Shown in pieces: positions 7,209 through 18,526 of a stretch of 64,000 nt of DNA. The position numbers were made by a program, and so were the translations under genes. The stretch comes from Phycisphaeraceae bacterium (GTDB lineage: Bacteria > Planctomycetota > Phycisphaerae > Phycisphaerales > UBA1924): the NCBI GenBank assembly GCA_019636795.1, contig JAHBWW010000005.1, positions 124,001 through 188,000 on the forward strand. Direction: 5' to 3'. Position 1 is the stretch's first letter. The number at the start of each line of letters is the position of its first letter. The notes beneath the pieces are model-generated. The model searched no databases and was not told the DNA's origin. It saw nothing but the letters and a program-made list of their open reading frames with translations.

Positions 7209-8282
7209 GTGAGCGAATCTGCCGCAAGGACAGAGAATACGCAGCGACCTCCGGTCCGGGGGTTGCTCGGGCGCGCGCTGAGCAAAGTGTATGAAGTTGA
7301 ACTGAACCGCAGATCGCGCAGGTTCGATGCCGGGGTTGGAGTGCACCGGCTTGATCGACCGGTCATCAGCGTCGGGAATCTGTCGGTCGGCGGAACGGGC
7401 AAGACTCCGACGGTGACGGCTGTTTCTCGATGGCTGCTCGAGGCCGGGCATAGGCCTTGCATTGCGATGCGTGGATATCGGGCTCGCGATGGCGAGTCGG
7501 ATGAGGCGATGGAGTATCGGCAGGTGATCGCGGGTGTGCCTGTGGTGGCCAAGCCCGACCGTCGCGCCGGGTTGAACACACTTTTCGCATCGCCAGAGGG
7601 AGCGGGTGTAGATTGCGTAGTGCTCGACGACGGGTTTCAGCATCGCCGACTCGCGCGCGATCTGGATCTTGTGCTGATCGATGCGACGCGCGATCCGTTT
7701 GCCGATAGGTTGCTCCCCGCGGGATGGCTGCGCGAGCGACCCGAAGCACTGCGGCGGGCACACGCGGTTGTTGTGACGCACGCTGAGCGAGTCGGTGTGG
7801 GTGTCGTTGAGCGGATGTTCGAACGCCTCTCCCGAATCAACGCGCAGTTGACCCTGGCGAGTTCATGGCACCACTGGTCGGGCCTAAGTGTGCGCGAATT
7901 CGATGGCGCGGTCGAGCAACATCCGGTGTCGTGGCTCAACGGGCAGCGAGTGCTCGCGGTGTGTGGCATCGGCAATGGGGCGGCGTTTGTGGCGGCAGCT
8001 GAGGGAGCGGTTGGCAGCGCGCTGGCGGGTGCAATCGTGCTGCGCGATCATGCACACTATGACCGCCGCACGCTCGACCGAATTTTCCGAGCGGTCAAGC
8101 AAACACAGGCCGATGTCATTTTGACAACGCGCAAAGATGATGTCAAACTCTCGGCATGGGCTACGAGGGATGGTCTTTGCCCCGTGGCAACAGCCGAACT
8201 GGAGATTCGTTTTGATCGGGGGAAGGACGCTCTGCGCGAGCGGGTGCTCCAAGTCGTGGCGAGCGGAAGCCGAATACGATAG
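7209..8282 (+). CDS. lpxK: Tetraacyldisaccharide 4'-kinase
   Basis: LpxK phosphorylates the 4' position of the lipid A disaccharide at the inner membrane. The 357-residue protein has the family P-loop VISVGNLSVGGTGKTPTV, then RPCIAMRGYRARDGESDEA (usual RGYGR...DEP region), a VVLDDGFQHRRLARDLDLVL block with the typical DDGFQH, and a C-terminal ILTTRKDDVKL close to the usual TEKDAVK. The GTG at 7209 is the best start because homology begins soon after it. The next gene, hldE, begins 6 nt later, so the two outer-membrane genes are co-transcribed. This implies that the organism makes lipid A. Confidence 0.94.
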   Translation: MSESAARTENTQRPPVRGLLGRALSKVYEVELNRRSRRFDAGVGVHRLDRPVISVGNLSVGGTGKTPTVTAVSRWLLEAGHRPCIAMRGYRARDGESDEAMEYRQVIAGVPVVAKPDRRAGLNTLFASPEGAGVDCVVLDDGFQHRRLARDLDLVLIDATRDPFADRLLPAGWLRERPEALRRAHAVVVTHAERVGVGVVERMFERLSRINAQLTLASSWHHWSGLSVREFDGAVEQHPVSWLNGQRVLAVCGIGNGAAFVAAAEGAVGSALAGAIVLRDHAHYDRRTLDRIFRAVKQTQADVILTTRKDDVKLSAWATRDGLCPVATAELEIRFDRGKDALRERVLQVVASGSRIR

Positions 8283-8288
8283 GTCCAC

Positions 8289-9782
8289 ATGGATCGATTG
8301 CTTGAACATCTTGCTGCGTGGAAGCCATTCACGGCTGTGGTTGTCGGTGATTTCATGCTCGATCAGTTGCTGTTTGGCGATGCCGAGCGGCTGAGTTCGG
8401 ATGCGCCCGTGCCAGTGCTTCAGGTGCGGCGTCAGGAAAATATGCCGGGCGGCGCTGCCAACTTGTGCATGGATCTTGCCGCGATGAAAGGCCGCGTGTA
8501 TGCGCTCGGGGTTGTAGGACTCGATCCGGAAGGGCAGGTTCTCCGACGCGAGATGGATACGCGCGGCATCGACACCACGGGCCTGATCGCTGATGCGTCA
8601 CGCCCGACGACGATCAAACGCAATCTGATCGGTCTCGCGCAGGCGCGGCACCCTCAGAAAATGTTTCGCGTGGACTTCGAATCGCGCGAACCGATCGCGT
8701 TGAGTATCAGCGATGCGATCCTGGCACGTCTCGATGCGATTCTGTCCGAGGCCGACATCGTGTGCATCGAAGATTACGGCAAGGGCGTCTGCACCGATGC
8801 ACTCTGCCAGGAGGTGATTCGTCGATCGCGTGCCCGCGGGCGCGAGGTGCTGGTGGATCCGTGCATCTCAACGGACTTTGTGCGTTATCGGGGTGCGACA
8901 GCGATCACTCCCAATCGCACCGAAGCCGAGCGGGCGACGGGCCTCAAGACCCACGAACACGCAGACGCGGAGCACAACGCGGCACTGGCTCGCGGGTTGC
9001 TGGCTCGGTTGGAACTCGATGCAGTGGTGTTGACGCTTGATCGTCATGGCGCGCTTCTGCTTGAACGCACAACCGATGAGCCGCTTCCGGTGCCCACGAT
9101 CGCTCGCGATGTGTACGACGTGACTGGTGCGGGCGACATGATGCTCGCGGGACTGGCAGCATCGCGTGCCAATGGGCTCGACTGGCCCAGCGCGGTGCGG
9201 CTGGCCAACGCTGCTGCAGGTCTCGAAGTGCAAGTGTTCGGCGTGAAACCAATCCCGATTGAACGCATCCACCACGAGATTCTCGAACAACAGGCTCTGC
9301 GACTGGGCAAACTGCGCTCGCTCGAACAGATACAAGTGCAGGTGCGTGCGGTGCGTGAGGATGGGGGCAGCGTCGCCTTCACGAACGGGTGTTTCGACGT
9401 CATTCACGCTGGGCATGTGCGTCTGCTCGAACAGGCATCGCAGACTGCCAGCCTGCTCATCATCGGGCTCAACAGTGATGCTTCGGTTCAGAGACTCAAA
9501 GGCCCCGAGCGCCCGATCAACGGCGAGCAGGATCGCGCTCGTGTGCTTGGCTCAATTTCGGGTGTCGGATCAATCGTTCTCTTCGATGAAGACACACCGA
9601 TGGGTCTCATCGAGGCAATTCGACCGGATGTGCTTATCAAGGGCGCGGATTATCAAGAACATCAGGTGGTCGGAGCCGATCTGGTCAAGAGTTATGGCGG
9701 GCGTGTGCACCTGATCGAGCTTGTTGCCGGCAAGAGTACAACGTCCACAATCGAGCGCATGCGGAAGCCATTGGGCCCATGA
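8289..9782 (+). CDS. hldE: Bifunctional heptose-7-phosphate kinase / heptose-1-phosphate adenylyltransferase
   Basis: HldE makes ADP-heptose for the LPS inner core. Residues about 1-325 are a PfkB/ribokinase-type kinase: VVGDFMLDQ at the start, MPGGAANLCMDLAAM for the sugar site, and DVYDVTGAGDMMLAGL with the catalytic Asp and anion hole. Residues about 355-497 are a nucleotidyltransferase: VAFTNGCFDVIHAGHVRLLE contains the HxGH site, and KGPERPINGEQDRARVL and a GKSTTSTIERM near the end are typical. Both halves look complete. The ASCH gene downstream overlaps by ATGA. gmhA, the previous step in the pathway, lies 10 kb away. Confidence 0.96.
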   Translation: MDRLLEHLAAWKPFTAVVVGDFMLDQLLFGDAERLSSDAPVPVLQVRRQENMPGGAANLCMDLAAMKGRVYALGVVGLDPEGQVLRREMDTRGIDTTGLIADASRPTTIKRNLIGLAQARHPQKMFRVDFESREPIALSISDAILARLDAILSEADIVCIEDYGKGVCTDALCQEVIRRSRARGREVLVDPCISTDFVRYRGATAITPNRTEAERATGLKTHEHADAEHNAALARGLLARLELDAVVLTLDRHGALLLERTTDEPLPVPTIARDVYDVTGAGDMMLAGLAASRANGLDWPSAVRLANAAAGLEVQVFGVKPIPIERIHHEILEQQALRLGKLRSLEQIQVQVRAVREDGGSVAFTNGCFDVIHAGHVRLLEQASQTASLLIIGLNSDASVQRLKGPERPINGEQDRARVLGSISGVGSIVLFDEDTPMGLIEAIRPDVLIKGADYQEHQVVGADLVKSYGGRVHLIELVAGKSTTSTIERMRKPLGP

Positions 9783-10318
9783 CTGATGACGCGAGGTCAC
9801 AACCAGATTTTGTGGGAGTGCGGCGTGTGCATCTCGCTGTGATCGAGCCGGGACTCGTGCGGGCCATGCTCGAGGGCAATAAGCGCATCGAATCGCGCTT
9901 CTCTCGCACACGGCGTGCGCCGTTCGGGCAGATCGAGGTGGACGATCGGGTGTATTTTCTGGCCCGCCGGGCAGGATTGATCGTGACTGGTCGCGTCGAG
10001 CGCGTCGAGTCGTTTGAGGGGCTCGACGAGCGAGGGGTGCGAGACTTGCGCGATCGTTATGGTCCATGTATCGCAGCAGCCGAAGCATACTGGCATCAAA
10101 AAAATGATGCACGCTTTGCGACATTGATGTGGTTTGACAGATTTGAGAAGGCGGCATTCGCACCCGACGACGTTCACGGGCGAGAGCGGTCGTATCGCTC
10201 GGCGTGGATCATCCGCCCCGGCGAGCAGTGTGTCTATCCGGCCTGTTGCCAGCACGAAGCTCAACGAAGCGCGAGGACTGAGCCGAGCCTGTTCGAATCG
10301 AGTTGCGCAGGAACATGA
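9779..10318 (+). CDS. ASCH-domain protein
   Basis: A 179-residue protein whose first 80 residues fit the ASCH fold, a PUA-like RNA-binding or sensor module. The signature is VIEPGLVRAMLEGNKRIESR, then RTRRAPFGQIEVDDRVYFLA, as in ASCH proteins that read LsGkKtiEsR...pf..v..GD. An aromatic middle section (EAYWHQKNDARFATLMWFDR) follows, and the C-terminus has paired cysteines (PACCQHE). The ATG overlaps the hldE stop (ATGA), so expression is tied to heptose synthesis, but the ligand is unknown. It could bind RNA or a nucleotide-like molecule; this is inference. Confidence 0.72.
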   Translation: MTDDARSQPDFVGVRRVHLAVIEPGLVRAMLEGNKRIESRFSRTRRAPFGQIEVDDRVYFLARRAGLIVTGRVERVESFEGLDERGVRDLRDRYGPCIAAAEAYWHQKNDARFATLMWFDRFEKAAFAPDDVHGRERSYRSAWIIRPGEQCVYPACCQHEAQRSARTEPSLFESSCAGT

Positions 10319-10327
10319 TTCACCGGC

Positions 10328-11371
10328 TTAGCGCCAATCGATGACAATTTTTCCAAAATGTTCCCCGGCCTCATAACGTTCATACGCTGTGAACGCCTCG
10401 TCTGCCGAGAAGACAGTGTCGACGACCGGTTTGAGCGCACCAGTGCGGTAGAGTGCAACGACTTCGCGGAACTCATCGTTCGAGCCCATGGTCGAGCCGA
10501 GGATGCGGAGTTGGTTCCAGAATATGCGGGCGAGGTCGGTGGTGGCATCGGGGCCGGTGGTGCAGCCTGGGGTGACATACGCTCCGCCGCGCGCCAGCGA
10601 CTTGATGCAGTTGAGGTGTGTGGCTTTGCCGACGGAATCGATAGCCATGTCAACGCCGCGTTTGCCGGTCCACGCGCGCACATCGCGCGACCAGTCCTGG
10701 CCCTCGTCGAGAATCAGACATTCGGCACCGAGTTGGCGAGCGTGTTCTAGTTTAGTGCGGCTTCGGCTCGTGACGCAGACAGAGCATCCAAAGTGCCGCG
10801 CGATGGCCAGAGCGCTGGTCGCTACTCCGCCACTGATGCCGGTGATGAGCACGCGCTGTCCGGGTGCGAGTTGGCCTTTGGTGATCATCATCGAGTAGGC
10901 GGTGAGCGCGCACAGGCCGAACGCAGCCGCCTCGATCGGATCGCAGTCATCGACTGCCGCGAGGTTGTCGGCTGGGCAGGAAAACTGTGCGGCGTGTGCC
11001 CCGAAGTGGTGCTCGCCGATGAGTTCATATTCAGGCGCGAGCGTGGTTCGTGGTGGCTCGGTTGGTGAGAGTGGCCTGACGATGCGCATCGCGGCGTTGT
11101 AGATCACCTGCTTGCCGATCCACGCTGGATTGACGTTCGGTCCGACTGATTCCACGATGCCACAACCGTCGCACCCCGAGATACGCGGGTAGGCGAGTTC
11201 CAGCCCCGGCACGCCGCGACCGACCCAGAGATCCATATAGTTAAACGCCGACGCGAGTGTGCGGACGGTGACGAATCCGGCCCGCGGCGGCTGCAGATCG
11301 GGCCAGTCATTGCGGACTTGGATGTTGGGCGCAACGGGGTTGCCTTGCTTGGTGACGACGATGGCTTTCAT
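10328..11371 (-). CDS. Medium-chain (quinone oxidoreductase-like) dehydrogenase
   Basis: A 347-residue MDR-superfamily enzyme that uses NAD(P)H. The N-terminal GroES-like domain has SAFNYMDLWVGRGVPG and ISGCDGCGIVESVG, and the Rossmann domain has QRVLITGISGGVATSALAIA (glycine-rich dinucleotide motif) and GVDMAIDSVGKATH. The structural-zinc Cys cluster of classical alcohol dehydrogenases is absent, and GCDGCG replaces the usual G-E/D-G-x-G. It is therefore more like a zinc-free or single-zinc quinone/enoyl reductase. The substrate cannot be told. It converges with the ASCH gene and is divergent from the cysteine-rich gene at 11521. Confidence 0.85.
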   Translation of the reverse strand: MKAIVVTKQGNPVAPNIQVRNDWPDLQPPRAGFVTVRTLASAFNYMDLWVGRGVPGLELAYPRISGCDGCGIVESVGPNVNPAWIGKQVIYNAAMRIVRPLSPTEPPRTTLAPEYELIGEHHFGAHAAQFSCPADNLAAVDDCDPIEAAAFGLCALTAYSMMITKGQLAPGQRVLITGISGGVATSALAIARHFGCSVCVTSRSRTKLEHARQLGAECLILDEGQDWSRDVRAWTGKRGVDMAIDSVGKATHLNCIKSLARGGAYVTPGCTTGPDATTDLARIFWNQLRILGSTMGSNDEFREVVALYRTGALKPVVDTVFSADEAFTAYERYEAGEHFGKIVIDWR

Positions 11372-11508
11372 GGGGTAGGCTATGTAGGGCGAGGTGATTG
11401 TGCCTGCCGAGTCGACCGATTTCGGGTACGAGGTCCGTTGTGCTGAGGTGTTCGGCGATCAAAACACGAAAATCGAGCAGATCGGGAAGCATTTGTCTGA
11501 GCATGTGG

Positions 11509-11514
11509 TATGAT
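11509..11514 (+). promoter_or_regulatory. Possible -10 box (TATGAT) placed for a leaderless transcript
   Basis: TATGAT ends 6 nt before the ATG at 11521, so a start of transcription 7 nt downstream would fall on the A of the start codon. No Shine-Dalgarno is visible before that ATG. No good -35 is found at 17 nt, so the call is weak. Confidence 0.3.
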
Positions 11515-11520
11515 GCTTTA

Positions 11521-11955
11521 ATGGGCCGCTTTGTGCTTGCCATGGTGATGATCTGGTCGCTGCTGCTTAGCCAAGGCTGGCAAGCGGAGTCAATGATCGC
11601 CGCGGCCGAGTGCTGTAAGATCGTGGTTGAGCCGGGGTACTGCAATCTTGATGAGTCCGAGAATAGTTACGGACGTGCCGGTGCCAACGCATTGTCCTGT
11701 TGCGCTTCCGCTTTAGAAACGACGAGCAGTCCGACGAGCTCGAACCACGATGGCCGCGACTCACCGGATTGCCCGGCATCCGGCGAAGAGTGTCCGTGTC
11801 TGTGCTGCCAACGCGTGCCTGCAACATCCAGTGCGTCTGCGTTCTCGTGGGCGGCAGCACTCGAGATTCCGAATCAATTAAGCATTGGTGAGGAGCGTGC
11901 GGCTCCTCTGTCGCGTTCTTTGCGGCCACCAAGCCCGCCTCCGAAGGTCTCCTGA
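11521..11955 (+). CDS. Exported cysteine-rich protein, possibly metal binding
   Basis: A 144-residue protein that I do not recognise. It begins with a signal-like hydrophobic stretch (LAMVMIWSLLLS, residues 6-17). The mature part has ten cysteines, mostly in pairs or close sets: C31-C32, C41, C60-C61, C84, then C91, C93, C95 and C96 in EECPCLCCQ. The C-terminus is proline-rich (RPPSPPPK). Small Cys-rich exported proteins with such ends are often found beside heavy-metal efflux genes, but none lies here. The start is the ATG at 11521; longer in-frame starts precede the signal region. It is 82 bp upstream of the metallothionein-like gene, and the two are probably one transcript. Confidence 0.6.
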   Translation: MGRFVLAMVMIWSLLLSQGWQAESMIAAAECCKIVVEPGYCNLDESENSYGRAGANALSCCASALETTSSPTSSNHDGRDSPDCPASGEECPCLCCQRVPATSSASAFSWAAALEIPNQLSIGEERAAPLSRSLRPPSPPPKVS

Positions 11956-12037
11956 ATGTGTTGAGTTGACTTCTCGAGTCGCTTCGGCCCGTTGTGGGCT
12001 GAACGATCAACATCAATCAGAATTCAGGAGATTTTCC

Positions 12038-12241
12038 ATGTCGAAGAAGATTGTTGCGGCGTGCGCCGCGTGCGCGATGGCGGCGGCTGCGCTGGCCATG
12101 AATCCCATGCAAACCCAGCCCGCCAAGGCAGCCACCGCTGGATGCTGCGCGTGCTGTCAGTGCAGTTGTCAGTGCGATGACTGCCAGTGCGACGATTGTT
12201 CGTGCTGTGCATGCTGCGCTGGTTGCGGCTGCAAGAACTGA
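12038..12241 (+). CDS. Exported metallothionein-like cysteine-cluster protein
   Basis: A 67-residue protein. Residues 1-31 make a signal peptide: KK, the hydrophobic AACAACAMAAAALAM, and an AKA cleavage site. The mature peptide is little more than a cysteine lattice: 16 Cys in residues 36-65, arranged as CC, CxC and CxxC steps (CCACCQCSCQCDDCQC and CDDCSCCACC) with four Asp and no aromatic residues. Such density is known from metallothioneins, which hold Cu, Zn or Cd through thiolates, but those are cytoplasmic; this one appears to be exported. A perfect CAGGAG lies 7 nt before the ATG. A terminator-like hairpin follows at 12281. A structural disulphide-rich peptide is the alternative. Confidence 0.75.
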   Translation: MSKKIVAACAACAMAAAALAMNPMQTQPAKAATAGCCACCQCSCQCDDCQCDDCSCCACCAGCGCKN

Positions 12242-12280
12242 TGCAGCGTCGCAGACCATGCGATGGATGATGAACACCAA

Positions 12281-12308
12281 GCGGCCGATCCTTGACGGGG
12301 TCGGCCGC
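12281..12308 (+). terminator. Probable terminator hairpin after the cysteine-cluster gene
   Basis: GCGGCCGA (12281-12288) pairs perfectly with TCGGCCGC (12301-12308) around a 12-nt loop, 40 bp after the stop. The following U tract is poor (AATTGTC), so termination may be weak. Confidence 0.5.
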
Positions 12309-12364
12309 AATTGTCATGTGCCCGAGTTGAATCGAATCTGGCAACTATGCCTGGCCAAGATGCC

Positions 12365-12396
12365 CAAGAAAAAGGGACCGGCGCGAAACCGGTCCC
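12365..12396 (-). terminator. Intrinsic terminator of rplS
   Basis: On the minus strand GGGACCGG (12396-12389) and CCGGTCCC (12381-12374) form a perfect 8-bp stem with a 7-nt loop, followed by a T-rich run (TTTTTCTT, 12373-12366). It lies about 30 bp after the rplS stop. Confidence 0.85.
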
Positions 12397-12424
12397 TCGA
12401 AGTTCAGATTGATCTGCGAATCGC

Positions 12425-12817
12425 TCAGCGGTTGATCGTCGGTTGGCCTTCGACATGCTTGAGCCCGCGGCGGCGATCGCGGAGGCGGCGGCTCTTGCCC
12501 ACACGATCACGCAGGAAGTACAACTTGGCGCGGCGGGCATCGCCACGACGCACCACTTCGATCTTCGCGATCATCGGGCTGTTGATCGGCCACGTGCGCT
12601 CGACGCCCTCGTTGTCGACGATGCGGCGAACGGTCATCATCTCGCCGATGCCCCGACCCTTGCGGCTCATGAGCACGCCCTGGAACACCTGGACGCGTTC
12701 CTTGTCGCCTTCGACAATACGGGCGTGAACGTTGATCGTGTCGCCGACATCCATGACCGGGATATCGGTCTTGAGGGATTCGGCATTGATGGATTCGATG
12801 ATCTGCTGCGTGCCCAT
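12425..12817 (-). CDS. rplS: 50S ribosomal protein L19
   Basis: L19 sits at the interface of the 30S and 50S subunits. The 130-residue protein has the standard features: IPVMDVGDTINVHARIVEGD near the start, ERVQVFQGVLMSRKGRGIGE, MTVRRIVDNEGVERTWPINS (usual FTVRKIS-GVGVER-FPLHSP), and a basic RRGDARRAKLYFLRDRVGK. The C-terminal tail is short and Arg/Lys-rich. It lies 71 bp after trmD on the same strand, the widespread trmD-rplS order, and ends at an intrinsic terminator at 12365-12396. Confidence 0.97.
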   Translation of the reverse strand: MGTQQIIESINAESLKTDIPVMDVGDTINVHARIVEGDKERVQVFQGVLMSRKGRGIGEMMTVRRIVDNEGVERTWPINSPMIAKIEVVRRGDARRAKLYFLRDRVGKSRRLRDRRRGLKHVEGQPTINR

Positions 12818-12888
12818 GGCGCACCCCTATGGTCAAAAATCCCCCGTTCGTCGGGGGCCTTGATGATAGGCGGGGTTGCCGGTGAGGT

Positions 12889-13689
12889 TCAACTGTGCTC
12901 GGGGCTCTCGAAAGGGGCAAGCAAGTCCGGACGCCGTGCCCGCGTTCGCTCCGCGGCCTGCTCAAGCCTCCAGCGGGCGACGGCGTCGTGGTCGCCGCTG
13001 AGCAGGATCTCGGGCACAGGCATCCCCATCCATTCGCGTGGGCGAGTGTAATGGGGGCAGTCGAGCAGACGGGCATCTTCGGGGATACGCAGTTCACTTC
13101 GCCATTGAGCCAGGAGCCGCGGCTCAATAGGATTTCCATTCGGGTTCAGTTCGGATATCTGCCCAAACGAGTCCTGAGTCGCACTTGCTTGATCGCCAAG
13201 CGCGCCGGGCTGGAGGCGGGCGACAGCGTCGATCAGCACAAGGGCTGCCAGTTCTCCGCCCGAGAGCACATAGTCACCCAGACTGATCTCCAGCGGCGAC
13301 AGACGCTCGATGACGCGCTCGTCGATTCCCTCATAGTGCCCGGCGATCAGGAGCAGACGCGGGCGGGCGGCGAGATCCTCGACAAGCCTCTGCGTCAGCG
13401 GCACACCTTGCGGCGTGAGCAGGATCCGTAACGCTGGTGTCGGGTCGCAGGCTTCGGCAGCATGGACGGCATCCCAGAGTGGCTGGCACATCATCACCAT
13501 GCCCGGCCCGCCTCCGAACGGTCGATCGTCGGTCTTGTCGTGCTTGTTGTCGGCAAAGTCACGGATGTTCGTGGCCAGGACTTCGAGCGCCCCCGCACGA
13601 ATCGCGCGTGCCGGGATCGAGACCCCAAGCACCCCGGGCGGCGTGAGCGAGAACAGTTCGGGAAATGTCGTCAGCACGTCAATGCGCAT
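12889..13689 (-). CDS. trmD: tRNA (guanine-N1-)-methyltransferase
   Basis: TrmD makes m1G37 in tRNAs and prevents +1 frameshifting. The 266-residue enzyme starts at MRIDVLTTFPELF, the family start, so the ATG at 13689 is preferred over a much longer in-frame extension. Family blocks are NKHDKTDDRPFGGGPGMVM, LLIAGHYEGIDERVIERL and ISLGDYVLSGGELAAL, the last two forming the deep trefoil knot that holds S-adenosylmethionine. The late block CPHYTRPREWMGMPVPEILL matches the usual PHYTRP...-VP-VLLSG. The gene precedes rplS and is divergent from the methyltransferase at 13804, sharing a 114-bp gap. Confidence 0.96.
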   Translation of the reverse strand: MRIDVLTTFPELFSLTPPGVLGVSIPARAIRAGALEVLATNIRDFADNKHDKTDDRPFGGGPGMVMMCQPLWDAVHAAEACDPTPALRILLTPQGVPLTQRLVEDLAARPRLLLIAGHYEGIDERVIERLSPLEISLGDYVLSGGELAALVLIDAVARLQPGALGDQASATQDSFGQISELNPNGNPIEPRLLAQWRSELRIPEDARLLDCPHYTRPREWMGMPVPEILLSGDHDAVARWRLEQAAERTRARRPDLLAPFESPEHS

Positions 13690-13803
13690 CGTCGAGCAAA
13701 CCCTAGCGGCTCCCGAGCCTGTGGCAAAGGCGCGGGCCCTACGATTCGTCTGGTTGCAAACACGTTCCGGCTCGGCGGACGGCTGCGAGAGGAAAGGGCA
13801 AGC

Positions 13804-14745
13804 ATGATCGAAGATGTTGTCACGGAAGCAGGCCAGGCCGAAGCAGGTCAAATCGAGGCGCTCAAGATCCGCATCGACGCCCTCGAACGCCGCAATACCG
13901 AACTCGCTACCATGCTCGAGTATCTTCACTTCTGGACGATTCGCAGCGACGAGAACATCCGCGACTTGACGAGCCGCATCGGCGGGCTGCCCGAAGCCGA
14001 ACGCGACACACGAGGAATTTTCGAGTTCAAGTGGCAACAACTCAACAAGGGTGTGAGCAGTCTGGAGAATCCGGAGCACAAGGCCGTCATCGCCGACACG
14101 GTGCTCCGATGGACCGGACTCAATCGGGAGTGGTTCAAGGGCAAGCGCGTGCTCGACGCAGGCTGTGGCGATGGGCGGCTGAGTTACGGCCTGTGCTCAC
14201 TCGGCGCCATCGTCACAAGCATGGATCAATCGACCAAGGGTGTCCAGCGCACGGTCGAGTACTGCAAAGAGTTTCCTGGACATCGCGGCATTGTCTGGAA
14301 TCTGCTCGATCGCTACGAAGCCGAGCCCGCGAGTTTCGATCTTGTGCTCAGTTTCGGTGTCATTCACTGCACGGGCGACACACGCAAGTCGATGGCAAAC
14401 CTCGATTCACTCATCAAGCCCGGGGGTTATCTGGCCTTGATGGTCTATGGCTATCCGCGCCCAGGCCATCATGGCGACTTTGTCCATATGGTGCGCAAGG
14501 AACGAATCCGACAGGCGATTCGGCACATGACCGGCGAGGAAGCCGTCGCGTACATTCAGCAGCAACTCGACGCTGGCGAAATCCGCGGCGATGCTCGCGG
14601 CTGGTATGACGCAACCGCGCCGCGCGTCGAGGACCATTACACATTCCCGCAGCTGAGCCAGATGATGCAGGAACTCAACTACACCGATATCGTCCTGCTC
14701 GATGAAGCCATACGCAACATTGCGGTGCGCGGTCGCAAGCCCTGA
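13804..14745 (+). CDS. Class I SAM-dependent methyltransferase with coiled-coil N-terminus
   Basis: A 313-residue protein. Residues about 10-50 are a heptad-like coiled coil (IEALKIRIDALERRNTELAT). The methyltransferase core begins with KRVLDAGCGDGRLSYGL (motif I for S-adenosylmethionine), followed by VTSMDQSTKGVQRTVEYC and FDLVLSFGVIHCTGDTRKSM (motif IV/V). The Met-rich C-terminal segment resembles that of sugar or small-molecule methyltransferases. The substrate is unknown. The ATG at 13804 has GAGGAAAGGG upstream. Nothing in the neighbourhood (trmD, H1-like gene) fixes its pathway. Confidence 0.8.
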   Translation: MIEDVVTEAGQAEAGQIEALKIRIDALERRNTELATMLEYLHFWTIRSDENIRDLTSRIGGLPEAERDTRGIFEFKWQQLNKGVSSLENPEHKAVIADTVLRWTGLNREWFKGKRVLDAGCGDGRLSYGLCSLGAIVTSMDQSTKGVQRTVEYCKEFPGHRGIVWNLLDRYEAEPASFDLVLSFGVIHCTGDTRKSMANLDSLIKPGGYLALMVYGYPRPGHHGDFVHMVRKERIRQAIRHMTGEEAVAYIQQQLDAGEIRGDARGWYDATAPRVEDHYTFPQLSQMMQELNYTDIVLLDEAIRNIAVRGRKP

Positions 14746-14802
14746 CCGAGTCATCAAGAGCGATGGTCAAGTCGTCTTGTGCGTCGCGCCTCGTGATGCG
14801 GT

Positions 14803-15543
14803 TCAGGGTCTGCTGTCGCGCTTAGCCTGATTCCGCTTTGTAATTCCCGCGACGCCGTGCACAGTGATCGGCGACTCGGTTTGAGAGATCAGCAATGCGT
14901 TGCGGTTGGCGGTCGAGGCCTTGTCATACGCGACGAACTGCTGCTGCTGAATCTCAGCCGCGATGGAACTCCCCAGGTTGTCCCTTGACTCATGTGAGGC
15001 AGGTCCTGAGCGACTGGTTGCGCGGGACGCGGCGAGTTTCTTCTTGACCACCTTCTTGCGAGCGGCCTTTTTGGCCTGCGTCTTCTTGCTCACCGGTCCG
15101 CCGGCGTTCTTGGCGCGAGGTTTGGCCGATGATTTCTTCTTGGCCGCTTTGGGTGCCGGAATGGTGGACTGCTTTGAAGTCTCTTTCGGGGCCGGTTTCT
15201 TAGCGGCTTTTGCCTTGGGCGGGCTCACTTTCTCGGCCGCCGTCTTCGTTTTGAGCGCGGCTTCGAAGCGATCCAGAGTCTCCTGGAACAACTGCAACTT
15301 GAGGTGTGTGTTCTTGTTGTCCCCGACTGGCCTCGTTCGGGTTCGAGTGCTCTTGCCGCGTTGTTCGCGCGTTTGCTGGTTAACCAGATCGCGGTATTTG
15401 TCGCGCAGTTTTCGAGCGAGAGCGAGCTTTTGCGCTAAACGCGATGGCGTCAGATCCTTGACACGCTGGCGAGTGCTCCAGTGCACCAGTCCGAGTTCAG
15501 GTTTCGAACAGATGGCTTTGGCGCGAGCAATGGTGATGGTCAT
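14803..15543 (-). CDS. Lysine/alanine-rich H1-like basic protein
   Basis: A 246-residue protein in three parts. Residues 1-65 form a helical domain (RAKAICSKPELGLVHWSTRQ, then RLAQKLALARKLRDKYRDL) also seen in a family of short bacterial proteins of unknown role. Residues about 95-175 are a Lys/Ala/Pro-rich stretch with repeats like KKAARKKVVKKK and KAAKKPAPKE, as in eukaryotic H1 and in bacterial Hc1-like proteins that bind DNA. The C-terminus ends with HGVAGITKRNQAKRDSRP, a tail also shared with that family. It probably compacts or coats nucleic acid; this is inference from composition. Confidence 0.65.
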   Translation of the reverse strand: MTITIARAKAICSKPELGLVHWSTRQRVKDLTPSRLAQKLALARKLRDKYRDLVNQQTREQRGKSTRTRTRPVGDNKNTHLKLQLFQETLDRFEAALKTKTAAEKVSPPKAKAAKKPAPKETSKQSTIPAPKAAKKKSSAKPRAKNAGGPVSKKTQAKKAARKKVVKKKLAASRATSRSGPASHESRDNLGSSIAAEIQQQQFVAYDKASTANRNALLISQTESPITVHGVAGITKRNQAKRDSRP

Positions 15544-15700
15544 GCTGGTCCTCGTGTTGTATCAGGCCGTGCCGTACTTGGGCACGACTCAATAGTCTCA
15601 TCGGTCCAATACGTCGCGGCGCATGGCAAGTGCCGCGCGTAATCCTACCCACGATTCTTCTCATCGACGACATCGCCAGCAGCAAACCGGCGCGACCACG

Positions 15701-15729
15701 ATCGTTCAGCGGACACAAAAGTCTGTCAA
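15701..15729 (-). promoter_or_regulatory. Possible sigma-70 promoter of the H1-like gene
   Basis: On the minus strand TTGACA (15729-15724) is followed after 17 nt by AACGAT (15706-15701). The -35 is perfect and the spacing ideal; the -10 matches only three of six positions. It lies about 160 bp before the gene start. Confidence 0.35.
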
Positions 15730-15735
15730 CTGTGA

Positions 15736-17592
15736 TCAGTCCGTCTTCGCTTCACCAAGTCGAGCAGCAATAACTTCGATCGCCTTTTCGAGTACCTCAT
15801 CACGACCGGCAGCAACTCCTGCGGGCGTAGGCACGACAGGAACGGTCGGCAGAATCCCGACTCCGTGATGGGTTGAGCCATCATGCTTGAGTACCTTCAT
15901 GCCCGTCCAGCCCACAATCGCTCCGCCCGGGAGGACGAAGGGATTGACGTTGCCGTTGGTACCCGCGGTGGTAGAGCCGACGATGTCTCCGAGTTTATAG
16001 TGCTCGACGATGCCCATGATCGACTCGGCGTACGAAATGGCTGCTGATGATGTCAGAAACGCGACGGGCTTGTCCCAGTGCGGCGCCTTTGGCGGCATGT
16101 CCCAAGCGCTTTGATCCCACCTCCACCCCGCGCGCCCGGGACGGGTAATGACGGGGACATGCCATTGAGCGCTGGCAACATTTCGATCGATCAGATGCCT
16201 GATGGCTTCGTAAGCAGCTCCGGCTGGATAGCCTCGCATATCAAAGATAATGCCGCGTGCAGACGTCAGTGTCTCAAGATTGCTTCGCAACTGATCGGAC
16301 TCGGCACCCACGAGATTGAAGTACACAACCCCAGGCGAGACTTCAGTACCGGATTCAGGGGTTCCCTTCTTCGGCATTGGTAGGGCTATGGGCATCGGCT
16401 TCATCAGAACCCGATGCACTTCGCCGTCGGGTCGCAGGAACTCGATCTCGACCGGGTCGGAAGTGCGCGGGCAAGTGAGTTCAAACGCAGCCAGATACTT
16501 CGCCCAGCCCTCAGTCGATGCGCAAATGGAAAGCCTCACCTCGGTATAGACCTCCGCAATGGGTTTGTCGTTGATCGCTCGCACAACCTCCCCTACGCCG
16601 ATCATCTCGGTAAATCCGGGGTCCACGCCGACGACGATCAGATCTGGTCCGGTCCAATCGAGCGTGATTGGCAGGCACCCCGCAAAACCGACACGGTGAA
16701 GTGTGACCGATCCGTGCCCATCGTGAAGTTGTGCAATCAGGCGTCGAAGGGTCATCAGGTGATCCGCGTCGCTCGTGGCTTCTGATGTCTGCTTGAGCCC
16801 CTCCGTCAGCGCTTTGTCCCAGTCAGTATCGACAACATCGAAGTACGGATAAAAGTGCTCCATCACGCCCCAGGCAGTCGCAATATCCGCAAATCGGGTT
16901 GCACGCTTTGACAGGGAAAACGCTGTGTTTTCAGGGGAAACTGTCCATTCCTGCGGCGTTGAGCCGAGCGGGAATGTACCCGTCCAGTTTCGATACACAA
17001 TCAGCGACAATCGGCACGACACCCCGCCTCCGAGGTTCGCGATGTGGAACCGGTCTTCCACCCGAAAGGGAAGATCATCACTTGTCAGACGGGCGGTGCG
17101 CAGTTGACTTGAATAGACGAACTGTTTGAAGGTGGTCGGGAGAGACCCGACGCCTTGGTGCTCCCAGTAACGCACTGAGCGCGAGCCTTCGGGAATCTCG
17201 GGCTCGGGGGGCGCAAAATCGGGTCCGCCAGCCCAGACTTCCAGAAGCGGACTGATCGGGGTAAAAATTTTGGCGAGCCTTGCTGCAAGGTCTTGAGCAT
17301 CAACAGCATCAAAAACAGACTCCATTGCCTGAATCGTGAACAGATCCCATGCTTTGACTCCGCTTGCTTGTGAACTCGGGTCAAAGTAGCGCACGAGGGC
17401 GACGAGCCGGGCGGCGGCTTCGAGATTCGCCGTCTCGCGCGCCGTCAGTACCCCGGACTCAAACTCATCTGGTGCAGGCGCGATCCGAGTCGCAGCCGGT
17501 GCCAGCGTACAACACCAGGCAAGGGCGATGCTGAGAGCAACCTGGATTTGAAGACGAAACTTCAGCAACACATGTGGATAGGGGATCATCAT
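15736..17592 (-). CDS. Secreted S41-family (C-terminal processing) peptidase
   Basis: A 618-residue protein with an N-terminal signal peptide (ALSIALAWCCTLAPA, about residues 19-33). It has an N-terminal helical domain, a PDZ-like domain at about 310-370 (VVGVDPGFTEMIGVGEVVRA), and an S41 protease core at about 420-600: GVVYFNLVGAES, RGIIFDMRGYPAG, and KPVAFLTSSAAISYAESIMG with the probable nucleophile Ser in the ISYAES turn, then DIVGSTTAGTNGNVNPFVLP. S41 enzymes use a Ser-Lys dyad or a catalytic triad and cut proteins near the C-terminus. It stands alone, upstream of two PEP-CTERM genes only in space; a role in their processing is speculative. Confidence 0.85.
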   Translation of the reverse strand: MMIPYPHVLLKFRLQIQVALSIALAWCCTLAPAATRIAPAPDEFESGVLTARETANLEAAARLVALVRYFDPSSQASGVKAWDLFTIQAMESVFDAVDAQDLAARLAKIFTPISPLLEVWAGGPDFAPPEPEIPEGSRSVRYWEHQGVGSLPTTFKQFVYSSQLRTARLTSDDLPFRVEDRFHIANLGGGVSCRLSLIVYRNWTGTFPLGSTPQEWTVSPENTAFSLSKRATRFADIATAWGVMEHFYPYFDVVDTDWDKALTEGLKQTSEATSDADHLMTLRRLIAQLHDGHGSVTLHRVGFAGCLPITLDWTGPDLIVVGVDPGFTEMIGVGEVVRAINDKPIAEVYTEVRLSICASTEGWAKYLAAFELTCPRTSDPVEIEFLRPDGEVHRVLMKPMPIALPMPKKGTPESGTEVSPGVVYFNLVGAESDQLRSNLETLTSARGIIFDMRGYPAGAAYEAIRHLIDRNVASAQWHVPVITRPGRAGWRWDQSAWDMPPKAPHWDKPVAFLTSSAAISYAESIMGIVEHYKLGDIVGSTTAGTNGNVNPFVLPGGAIVGWTGMKVLKHDGSTHHGVGILPTVPVVPTPAGVAAGRDEVLEKAIEVIAARLGEAKTD

Positions 17593-17644
17593 CCTGACAT
17601 GGTATCAGAATCAGGCAATCTGATGGGCGCGCAGGTGAGGGAGG

Positions 17645-17680
17645 ACAAAAAGAAACGGACCCGAGTTACCTCGGGCCCGT
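17645..17680 (-). terminator. Intrinsic terminator of the first PEP-CTERM gene
   Basis: On the minus strand ACGGGCCCGAG and CTCGGGTCCGT form an 11-bp stem (one G-U pair) with a GTAA loop, followed by a T-rich run (TTTCTTTTTGT, 17654-17644). It starts about 25 bp after the stop. Confidence 0.88.
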
Positions 17681-17704
17681 GAAAACTTGAATGATCGAAG
17701 CGGA

Positions 17705-18526
17705 TCAGCGGCGGCGACGGATCGCAGCCAGACCACCGAGGCCCAGAAGCGCCAGGCCGGTCGGCGACGGGATGGTCGGGATGACCGTGAAGGAGGTGCC
17801 TGCACCCGCGGTTGAAGCGCCGAGGTTGGCCAAGATCGTGATCTGACCTGTCGTCATGCTGATTTCGCCCATCACCAGGTCCAGCGTCCCTGCACGAATG
17901 AACGAACCATACAGGCGGCCATCGAACAGCTCGATGCCGTTGCCGCCGAAGTTCATGCCAGCGTGACCGATCAGGCGGACTTCAGCGTTGGCGTCGGAGG
18001 CCGACACAGCGTAGAAGTTGCGGGTGCGGGAGTCACCGAAGACGAACTCGTCGGTTGCTTCGTTGTACGCCATGCCACCGATGGCCTGCGTCAGGTTATG
18101 CCACTCGCCGATTTTCTCAAACGACTGGGTGTCGATTTCGACGATGACGTTCAGGGAACCCTGGCGCTCGACGCCGAAGAGACGCTCGCCGACATAGGTG
18201 ATCGTGTTGTACGTCGCGTTTCCAGTACCGATGCGGACCATGGTCGGGGCGTCGGTGTTCTTGTTTGAACCGACGCGGTAGAACTCGGTGACAGCCTGGG
18301 CCTGATTGATCGTGTGGGCGATGATGCGGCCACGCGAGTCAGTGGTCATACCCGAGAAGGTCCAAGCTCCTTCGCCGTCAGCGAGATTCAGGACCTCGGT
18401 CTGAAGGGTGTCGGCGTTGGTCAGGAAAAGCTTCTGCCCATGGCCCGTCACATACTGCGCCTGAGCAGATGCAAACCCGGCAAGGGCAACGATGACTGCG
18501 GTTGAAACGACATTGCGATTAATCAT
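17705..18526 (-). CDS. Exported PEP-CTERM-type protein (paralogue 1)
   Basis: A 273-residue protein with a signal peptide (TAVIVALAGFASAQA, cut near residue 23) and a sorting tail of the PEP-CTERM type at about 252-273: IPSPTGLALLGLGGLAAI followed by RRRR. The mature part looks like a beta-propeller-like repeat protein; strands such as YNTITYVGERLFGVE, MAYNEATDEFVFGDSRTRNF and GNGIELFDGRLYGSFIRAG match the next gene. The role is unknown; PEP-CTERM tails mark proteins handled by exosortase/archaeosortase-like enzymes and sent to the surface or matrix. No exosortase is in this window. It has its own terminator. Confidence 0.82.
   Translation of the reverse strand: MINRNVVSTAVIVALAGFASAQAQYVTGHGQKLFLTNADTLQTEVLNLADGEGAWTFSGMTTDSRGRIIAHTINQAQAVTEFYRVGSNKNTDAPTMVRIGTGNATYNTITYVGERLFGVERQGSLNVIVEIDTQSFEKIGEWHNLTQAIGGMAYNEATDEFVFGDSRTRNFYAVSASDANAEVRLIGHAGMNFGGNGIELFDGRLYGSFIRAGTLDLVMGEISMTTGQITILANLGASTAGAGTSFTVIPTIPSPTGLALLGLGGLAAIRRRR

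Follow-up and report, generated by a model that had tools for sequence, protein, structure and literature searches.

A candidate exported, metallothionein-like orphan peptide encoded between an alcohol dehydrogenase-like gene and rplS in a Phycisphaeraceae bacterium

In the window investigated here, which is the whole stretch of 64,000 nucleotides that was analysed from a Phycisphaeraceae bacterium, one short ORF (P0001) encodes a protein of 67 residues with 16 cysteines packed into 30 of them. The sequence is best fitted by an orphan, exported, metallothionein-like peptide, and the probability of this reading is put at about 0.5. An earlier note on this DNA had proposed an exported thiolate metal trap accompanied by a chaperone or sensor, encoded by the ORF immediately upstream (P0002). 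The trap agrees with the sequence of P0001, from which export and metal binding would be expected, whereas the role given to the partner is unsupported. There is direct support for the ORF, for the arrangement of its cysteines, for its position between two genes that are direct neighbours in several relatives, and for a computed hairpin between the two ORFs.

11521 to 11955, + strand: P0002, an ORF of 144 aa with a signal-like N-terminus and 10 cysteines; probable gene
12038 to 12241, + strand: P0001, a 67-aa, probably exported, cysteine-rich ORF
12038 to 12097, + strand: putative signal peptide of P0001, residues 1 to 20 (AxA at 18 to 20; AxA ending at 31 or 34 as alternatives), from the sequence and a crude rule
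12143 to 12232, + strand: codons of the P0001 cysteine cluster, residues 36 to 65, with CCxCC, CxC and CDDC motifs

The start codon of P0001 is preceded by a Shine–Dalgarno sequence, AGGAG (12026-12030), which is 7 nt 5′ of the ATG. The protein begins with MSKK, followed by the hydrophobic stretch IVAACAACAMAAAALAM, and has AxA motifs ending at A20, A31, and A34. This N-terminus satisfies a crude signal-peptide rule based on hydrophobicity, and on that basis a signal-peptide-like start is confirmed, as are the 16 clustered cysteines described in the earlier note. Two cysteines (C9 and C12) fall within the putative signal peptide. The cluster, read from the sequence, occupies positions 36, 37, 39, 40, 42, 44, 46, 49, 51, 54, 56, 57, 59, 60, 63, and 65, making the core (residues 36-65) 53 % cysteine. 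The residues between the cysteines are small or polar, and F, W, Y, and H are absent from the entire protein. The runner-up in the 64-kb window, among 1148 stop-to-stop segments of at least 30 aa, has 8 cysteines per 30 aa, and the maximum reached by chance across 40 order-2 Markov windows was 10 in 30, versus 16 in P0001. The synonymous codon score (0.123) is within the range of 13 long ORFs (0.068-0.359), which were taken as the reference on the assumption that they are genes; the random null is −0.141, with a fraction of 0.001 scoring as high. Absence of conservation in the genomes and contigs searched is what a frame that is not a gene would show. Against this, the combination of cysteine density, signal-like start, Shine–Dalgarno site, and gene-like codon usage makes a non-coding frame highly improbable; in all likelihood P0001 is a true gene. 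A search of the + strand between 11350 and 12450 gave no sigma-70-type promoter.

Metallothioneins in the broad sense are small, have CC, CxC, and CxxC spacing, and are without aromatic residues; P0001 has all of these features (size, cysteine spacing, and no aromatics). The PF02069 type of bacterial metallothionein is cytoplasmic and has no signal peptide. Like these SmtA/BmtA-type proteins, P0001 is small and cysteine-rich and would probably form metal–thiolate clusters, but it does not match the PF02069 profile, it carries a signal-like leader, and its cysteines are far denser. A six-frame search of this genome with PF02069 gave no match, while the Synechococcus elongatus control was positive. 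Below the cut-off, there are matches in 3 of 163 genomes of the family, all three from a single genus, g67. These metallothionein-like frames of the PF02069 type (L287 1447-1782, L288 1438-1782, and L289 1456-1770; G126, G133, and G134) start, by reading, without a signal peptide.

Other cysteine-rich proteins are found at or beyond the bacterial cell membrane. Csp1 is described as an exported bacterial protein, rich in cysteine, that stores copper outside the cytoplasm; it has a Tat signal and folds as a four-helix bundle (PMC7558416). P0001 would share with Csp1 its cysteine richness and its export to hold metal; unlike Csp1, it is a short protein with runs of CC and CxC, and its N-region lacks a twin arginine. 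Neither the Csp family profile nor any other family matched P0001 in Pfam or NCBIfam (0 families in each, E up to 10). PmtA of Pseudomonas aeruginosa is reported as a metallothionein at the cell surface that has no signal peptide (PMC11237414), and of the two only P0001 carries a signal-like N-terminus. In chlamydiae, OmcA is an exported 9 kDa cysteine-rich outer-membrane lipoprotein (PMC2811131). Both OmcA and P0001 are small and cysteine-rich, and P0001, like OmcA, may be exported to the envelope, but P0001 has no Pfam match and no canonical lipobox; its first cysteine after the leader, C36, follows TAG and is distant from the hydrophobic stretch. Among the matches listed in a literature search, no title reports a bacterial metallothionein exported via a signal peptide, and the one match of an exported type is from a fungus; the subscription journals are mostly outside this search, so that it is not proof of novelty.

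In the proposed function, a Sec-type leader would carry P0001 across the inner membrane, giving a mature peptide of 33-47 residues, depending on which of three possible cleavage sites is used, with 16 cysteines in CC, CxC, and CxxC spacing. This peptide could wrap around several d10 ions (Cu(I), Zn(II), or Cd(II), for example) in thiolate clusters, which would buffer metal in the periplasm. The export, the binding, and the identity of the metal we infer from the protein sequence. If this is true, it would suggest that in some bacteria thiolates buffer metal beyond the cytoplasm, raising the question of how such thiols remain reduced or metallated there. Weighing against a metal trap is that the cysteine pattern has no homologue to show its conservation.

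Sec export delivers thiols to a compartment where disulphides are the alternative, and the protein wall of planctomycetes is high in cystine. The main rival explanation is a disulphide-linked envelope peptide in which metals are not involved. Such a peptide would have the same exported location and would also be small and cysteine-rich. The genome looks planctomycete-like by its ribosomal protein L19, and the planctomycete wall is stabilised by a proteinaceous layer, as stated in one source (PMC3035269). In addition, a protein from another genome that is analogous in position (G160, see below) carries a LAGC motif that marks it as a lipoprotein, which OmcA is as well (PMC2811131). However, neither P0001 (E up to 10) nor the G160 protein (E up to 0.01) has a Pfam match, and a core that is 53 % cysteine, with CCxCC and CxCxC runs and no aromatics, has few other residues from which a disulphide fold could be built. 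A search for VKOR-type disulphide oxidases found none in the genome; as it covered that type and not the DsbA/DsbB families, it argues only weakly against an oxidising route. A disulphide-linked peptide is considered unlikely, and the metallothionein-like reading is preferred.

Homologues and their neighbours had been suggested in the earlier note as a check, and no homologues were found. There is no credible relative of P0001 in 162 other genomes of the family, none of which belongs to the genus of this bacterium, nor of P0002 in the same 162 genomes and in 399 other genomes of the order. P0001 likewise had no confirmed match in the collections of genome contigs, viral contigs, and plasmids, and no credible relative among PDB sequences, and P0002 had no match in Pfam and NCBIfam. 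Three further weak matches for each protein in the 163 family genomes (E 0.0029-0.0081; one of those for P0002 in its own genome) are attributed to chance; five of the six are interrupted by stops and the sixth (L005) is inside a 253-codon frame with 5 cysteines. Two further matches for P0002 in the 400 genomes of the order, its own included, were rejected, being on the strand opposite to a long frame that is transporter-like by reading.

Searches by cysteine pattern were also made. The DNA pattern for CCxCCxCxCxC is present in at least 118 stretches of the genome contigs; with many repeats among these stretches, it says little on homologues. Of the 118 stretches listed, 80 were inspected for the pattern. 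When the export rule was applied to the 118, six ORFs with at least 8 cysteines in 30 passed; by eye these are poly-cysteine or repeat frames, unlike P0001. A shorter cysteine pattern matches 148 of the 163 family genomes and, with a backward-read control also matching, is unusable. The homologue searches are insensitive due to low complexity, and the search of the family with P0001 missed the G160 gene. Short, low-complexity, orphan genes are thus a blind spot, escaping both profile and BLAST searches.

The two ORFs have an alcohol dehydrogenase-like gene and rplS as their neighbours.

10328 to 11371, − strand: ADH, zinc-type alcohol dehydrogenase-like (Pfam PF00107/PF08240), divergent from P0002
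12372 to 12398, − strand: stem-loop resembling a terminator, 3′ of rplS and on its strand (1 found versus a shuffle mean of 1.1, weak alone)
12425 to 12817, − strand: rplS, ribosomal protein L19 (Pfam PF01245), convergent with P0001

The stem-loop could stop transcription of rplS from running into P0001. The Pfam scan of the neighbourhood covers nine ORFs (7209-18526), three of them without a match, and also names LpxK and a PfkB/cytidylyltransferase two-domain protein (HldE-like). No metal transporter or metal sensor was matched among these nine ORFs, the sole metal-related profile being a weak TehB (tellurite) match of 21.8 bits, with a cut-off of 20.4. The ORF matching TehB is a generic methyltransferase (window 13462-14742, + strand). 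A small protein with a leader-like N-terminus and a cysteine-rich core could also be the precursor of a modified or antimicrobial cysteine-rich peptide, RiPP-like, in which the N-terminus serves as the leader. This is very unlikely, given that none of the nine ORFs (7209-18526) matched a dedicated peptide-maturation enzyme; the S41 peptidase and the generic methyltransferase lie beyond rplS, which separates them from P0001.

The rplS regions of 20 relatives were compared, drawn from 40 genomes with an rplS match, this genome being within the 40. ADH and rplS are both found in 10 of the 20. Their alignments are 70-154 bp apart in seven of these ten and 833, 1033, and 2575 bp apart in the other three. 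Here the gap, counted from the gene ends, is 1053 bp, and P0001 and P0002 therefore take up a junction where most of the ten relatives have almost no sequence. The 1033-bp gap in one relative (G106) is occupied by an unrelated open frame of 258 codons (L199 12396-13169, + strand); judging from this different frame, genes specific to one lineage or another seem to be accepted at this junction. The L19 sequence has 70 % identity to that of a Planctomycetota MAG, 64 % to Phycisphaeraceae, 57 % to Singulisphaera, 53 % to Planctomycetes SV_7m_r, and at most 52 % to others (11 other genomes compared, nine matching; one of the two that do not match is a Pirellula). The four named, all planctomycete records, are the closest.

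P0001 has one positional analogue, which is also exported-looking. This G160 protein (L200 12835-13110, − strand) has 91 aa, with 21 cysteines after residue 20, a twin arginine, and LAGC. It comes from another genus of the family and, by its sequence, is possibly a Tat-type lipoprotein. Its gene is directly downstream of rplS on the rplS strand, whereas P0001 faces rplS. In the G160 genome, the gene order round rplS is rearranged: ADH is on the other strand, and a frame that by reading is partly like ribosomal protein S16 (L200 13802-14572, − strand) is between rplS and ADH.

Of 30 rplS loci, 29 of them from other genomes, six have a segment with at least 7 cysteines in 30; by reading, only those of this genome and G160 have an export-like start. 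Across 60 stretches from relatives and this genome (1,155,185 bases), the G160 gene was the sole rule-passing ORF with more than 5 cysteines in 30. Dense exported cysteine genes are rare. A second one beside rplS is suggestive, but it is an observation from one genome, noticed post hoc, with 20 of the 60 stretches having been chosen at rplS. Sequence homology between P0001 and the G160 protein is not supported, as composition alone can account for their likeness: the score is equalled by 14 % of 2000 double shuffles, and by 36 % when only the core is compared. The tblastn E-value of 7e-7 between the two was obtained without composition correction and is discounted. In the 163 family genomes, the G160 protein matched itself and gave seven weak matches, and a profile with two rows, P0001 and the G160 protein, had matches in 24 of the 163 at E up to 1. 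None of these seven matches or of the 26 profile matches beyond the two rows has more than 6 cysteines in 30 and, by reading, none is a short exported cysteine-rich protein; several are signal peptides of other proteins.

The upstream ORF is as the earlier note had described it, with a signal-like start (MGRFVLAMVMIWSLLL) and ten cysteines, arranged as CC, C, CC, C, and CxCxCC, but the gene call is weaker than for P0001. An alternative in-frame ATG at 11503 would make P0002 150 aa long. Its length is not significant, because an ATG ORF of at least 144 aa is present in 33 % of random 1053-bp sequences of the same composition. Its GC content varies less between codon positions (0.56/0.60/0.64) than that of the 13 long ORFs. 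There is no clear Shine–Dalgarno site 5′ of 11521 by eye, and none 5′ of 11503 by rule. Codon choice is mildly pro-coding (0.010 versus a null of −0.140, sd 0.066; fraction 0.008). The cysteine density, 5 in 30, is matched by two other rule-passing ORFs in the 1.16 Mb sampled, both of them without a Shine–Dalgarno site. P0002 is probably a gene. With no homologue, no family match, and a gene call that is only probable, its suggested function as a chaperone or sensor is not sustained. What links P0002 to P0001 is a predicted hairpin, a hint at joint expression and not at a chaperone.

11943 to 11957, + strand: predicted 5′ arm of the hairpin, spanning the last codons of P0002 and its stop codon (11953-11955)
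12022 to 12036, + strand: predicted 3′ arm of the hairpin, holding the P0001 Shine–Dalgarno sequence AGGAG (12026-12030)

The whole spacer between P0002 and P0001 (11943-12036) is folded by this inverted repeat at −49.3 kcal/mol (z −3.89), and 0 out of 200 shuffles are equally stable; in a longer context z is −2.61, with 1 out of 200 equally stable. The computed unpaired probability of the P0001 Shine–Dalgarno sequence is 0.00 in three contexts. Blocking the 5′ arm, at those bases that would be under a terminating ribosome, makes the fold less stable by about 22-24 kcal/mol in each of these contexts. Release of the Shine–Dalgarno sequence would be only partial, since its middle three bases, caught in a weak local hairpin, are then still mostly paired, with an unpaired probability of 0.06-0.14. 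The predicted hairpin over the Shine–Dalgarno sequence suggests translational gating of P0001; in the single sequence available, the pattern is one expected for translational coupling or a gated start. By burying the Shine–Dalgarno sequence, the hairpin would hold translation of P0001 down, and a ribosome reaching the P0002 stop would open the 5′ arm, leading to more P0001. The gating, like the translation of P0002, we infer. That all of this operates as a two-ORF cassette, in which P0002, itself an exported cysteine-containing protein, must be translated to its end, at the stop codon in the 5′ arm, before the hairpin lets an exported metallothionein be made as a periplasmic metal buffer, is improbable as a whole.

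Stems of this class were defined as having 15-nt arms, all of the pairs WC or GU and at least 13 of them WC, 20-100 nt apart. The hairpin is the sole such stem within the 64-kb window. However, 22 of 60 random windows have at least one, and raw energies as low as that of the hairpin are present in 732 of 6388 sliding windows (64 kb, both strands). The claim for the hairpin rests on its GC-corrected energy and its place. GC-corrected energies as low are seen in 11 of the 6388 windows, which overlap and include the neighbour of the hairpin's own window. It is possible, if somewhat unlikely, that P0001 and P0002 are unrelated, or that P0002 is no gene, the two being chance neighbours in an insertion-prone spot and the hairpin accidental; this is compatible with the other readings. 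P0002 being without a homologue in the 162 family and 399 order genomes, the different 258-codon frame in the L199 gap, and the frequency of such stems in random windows are all consistent with this. Against it, the stem sits exactly on the P0002 stop codon and the P0001 Shine–Dalgarno sequence, and no shuffle was as stable.

In Rfam, the inter-ORF hairpin segment matched nothing at the gathering score, and no second copy of the hairpin was found in the genome, where the only matches were itself and one of 16 bases (E 0.34). A lax Rfam setting gave five sub-threshold matches. One of these, Glutamine-II, is within the hairpin on the opposite strand (11973-12008, E 0.39) and is taken as chance. 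The best sub-threshold match was to the Burkholderia sRNA BcKCsr2 (25.1 bits, gathering score 40, E 0.0026; window 12177-12315, + strand). It covers the end of P0001 and the sequence downstream, where windows with starts at 12181-12281 also rank in the top 40 by GC-corrected folding energy.
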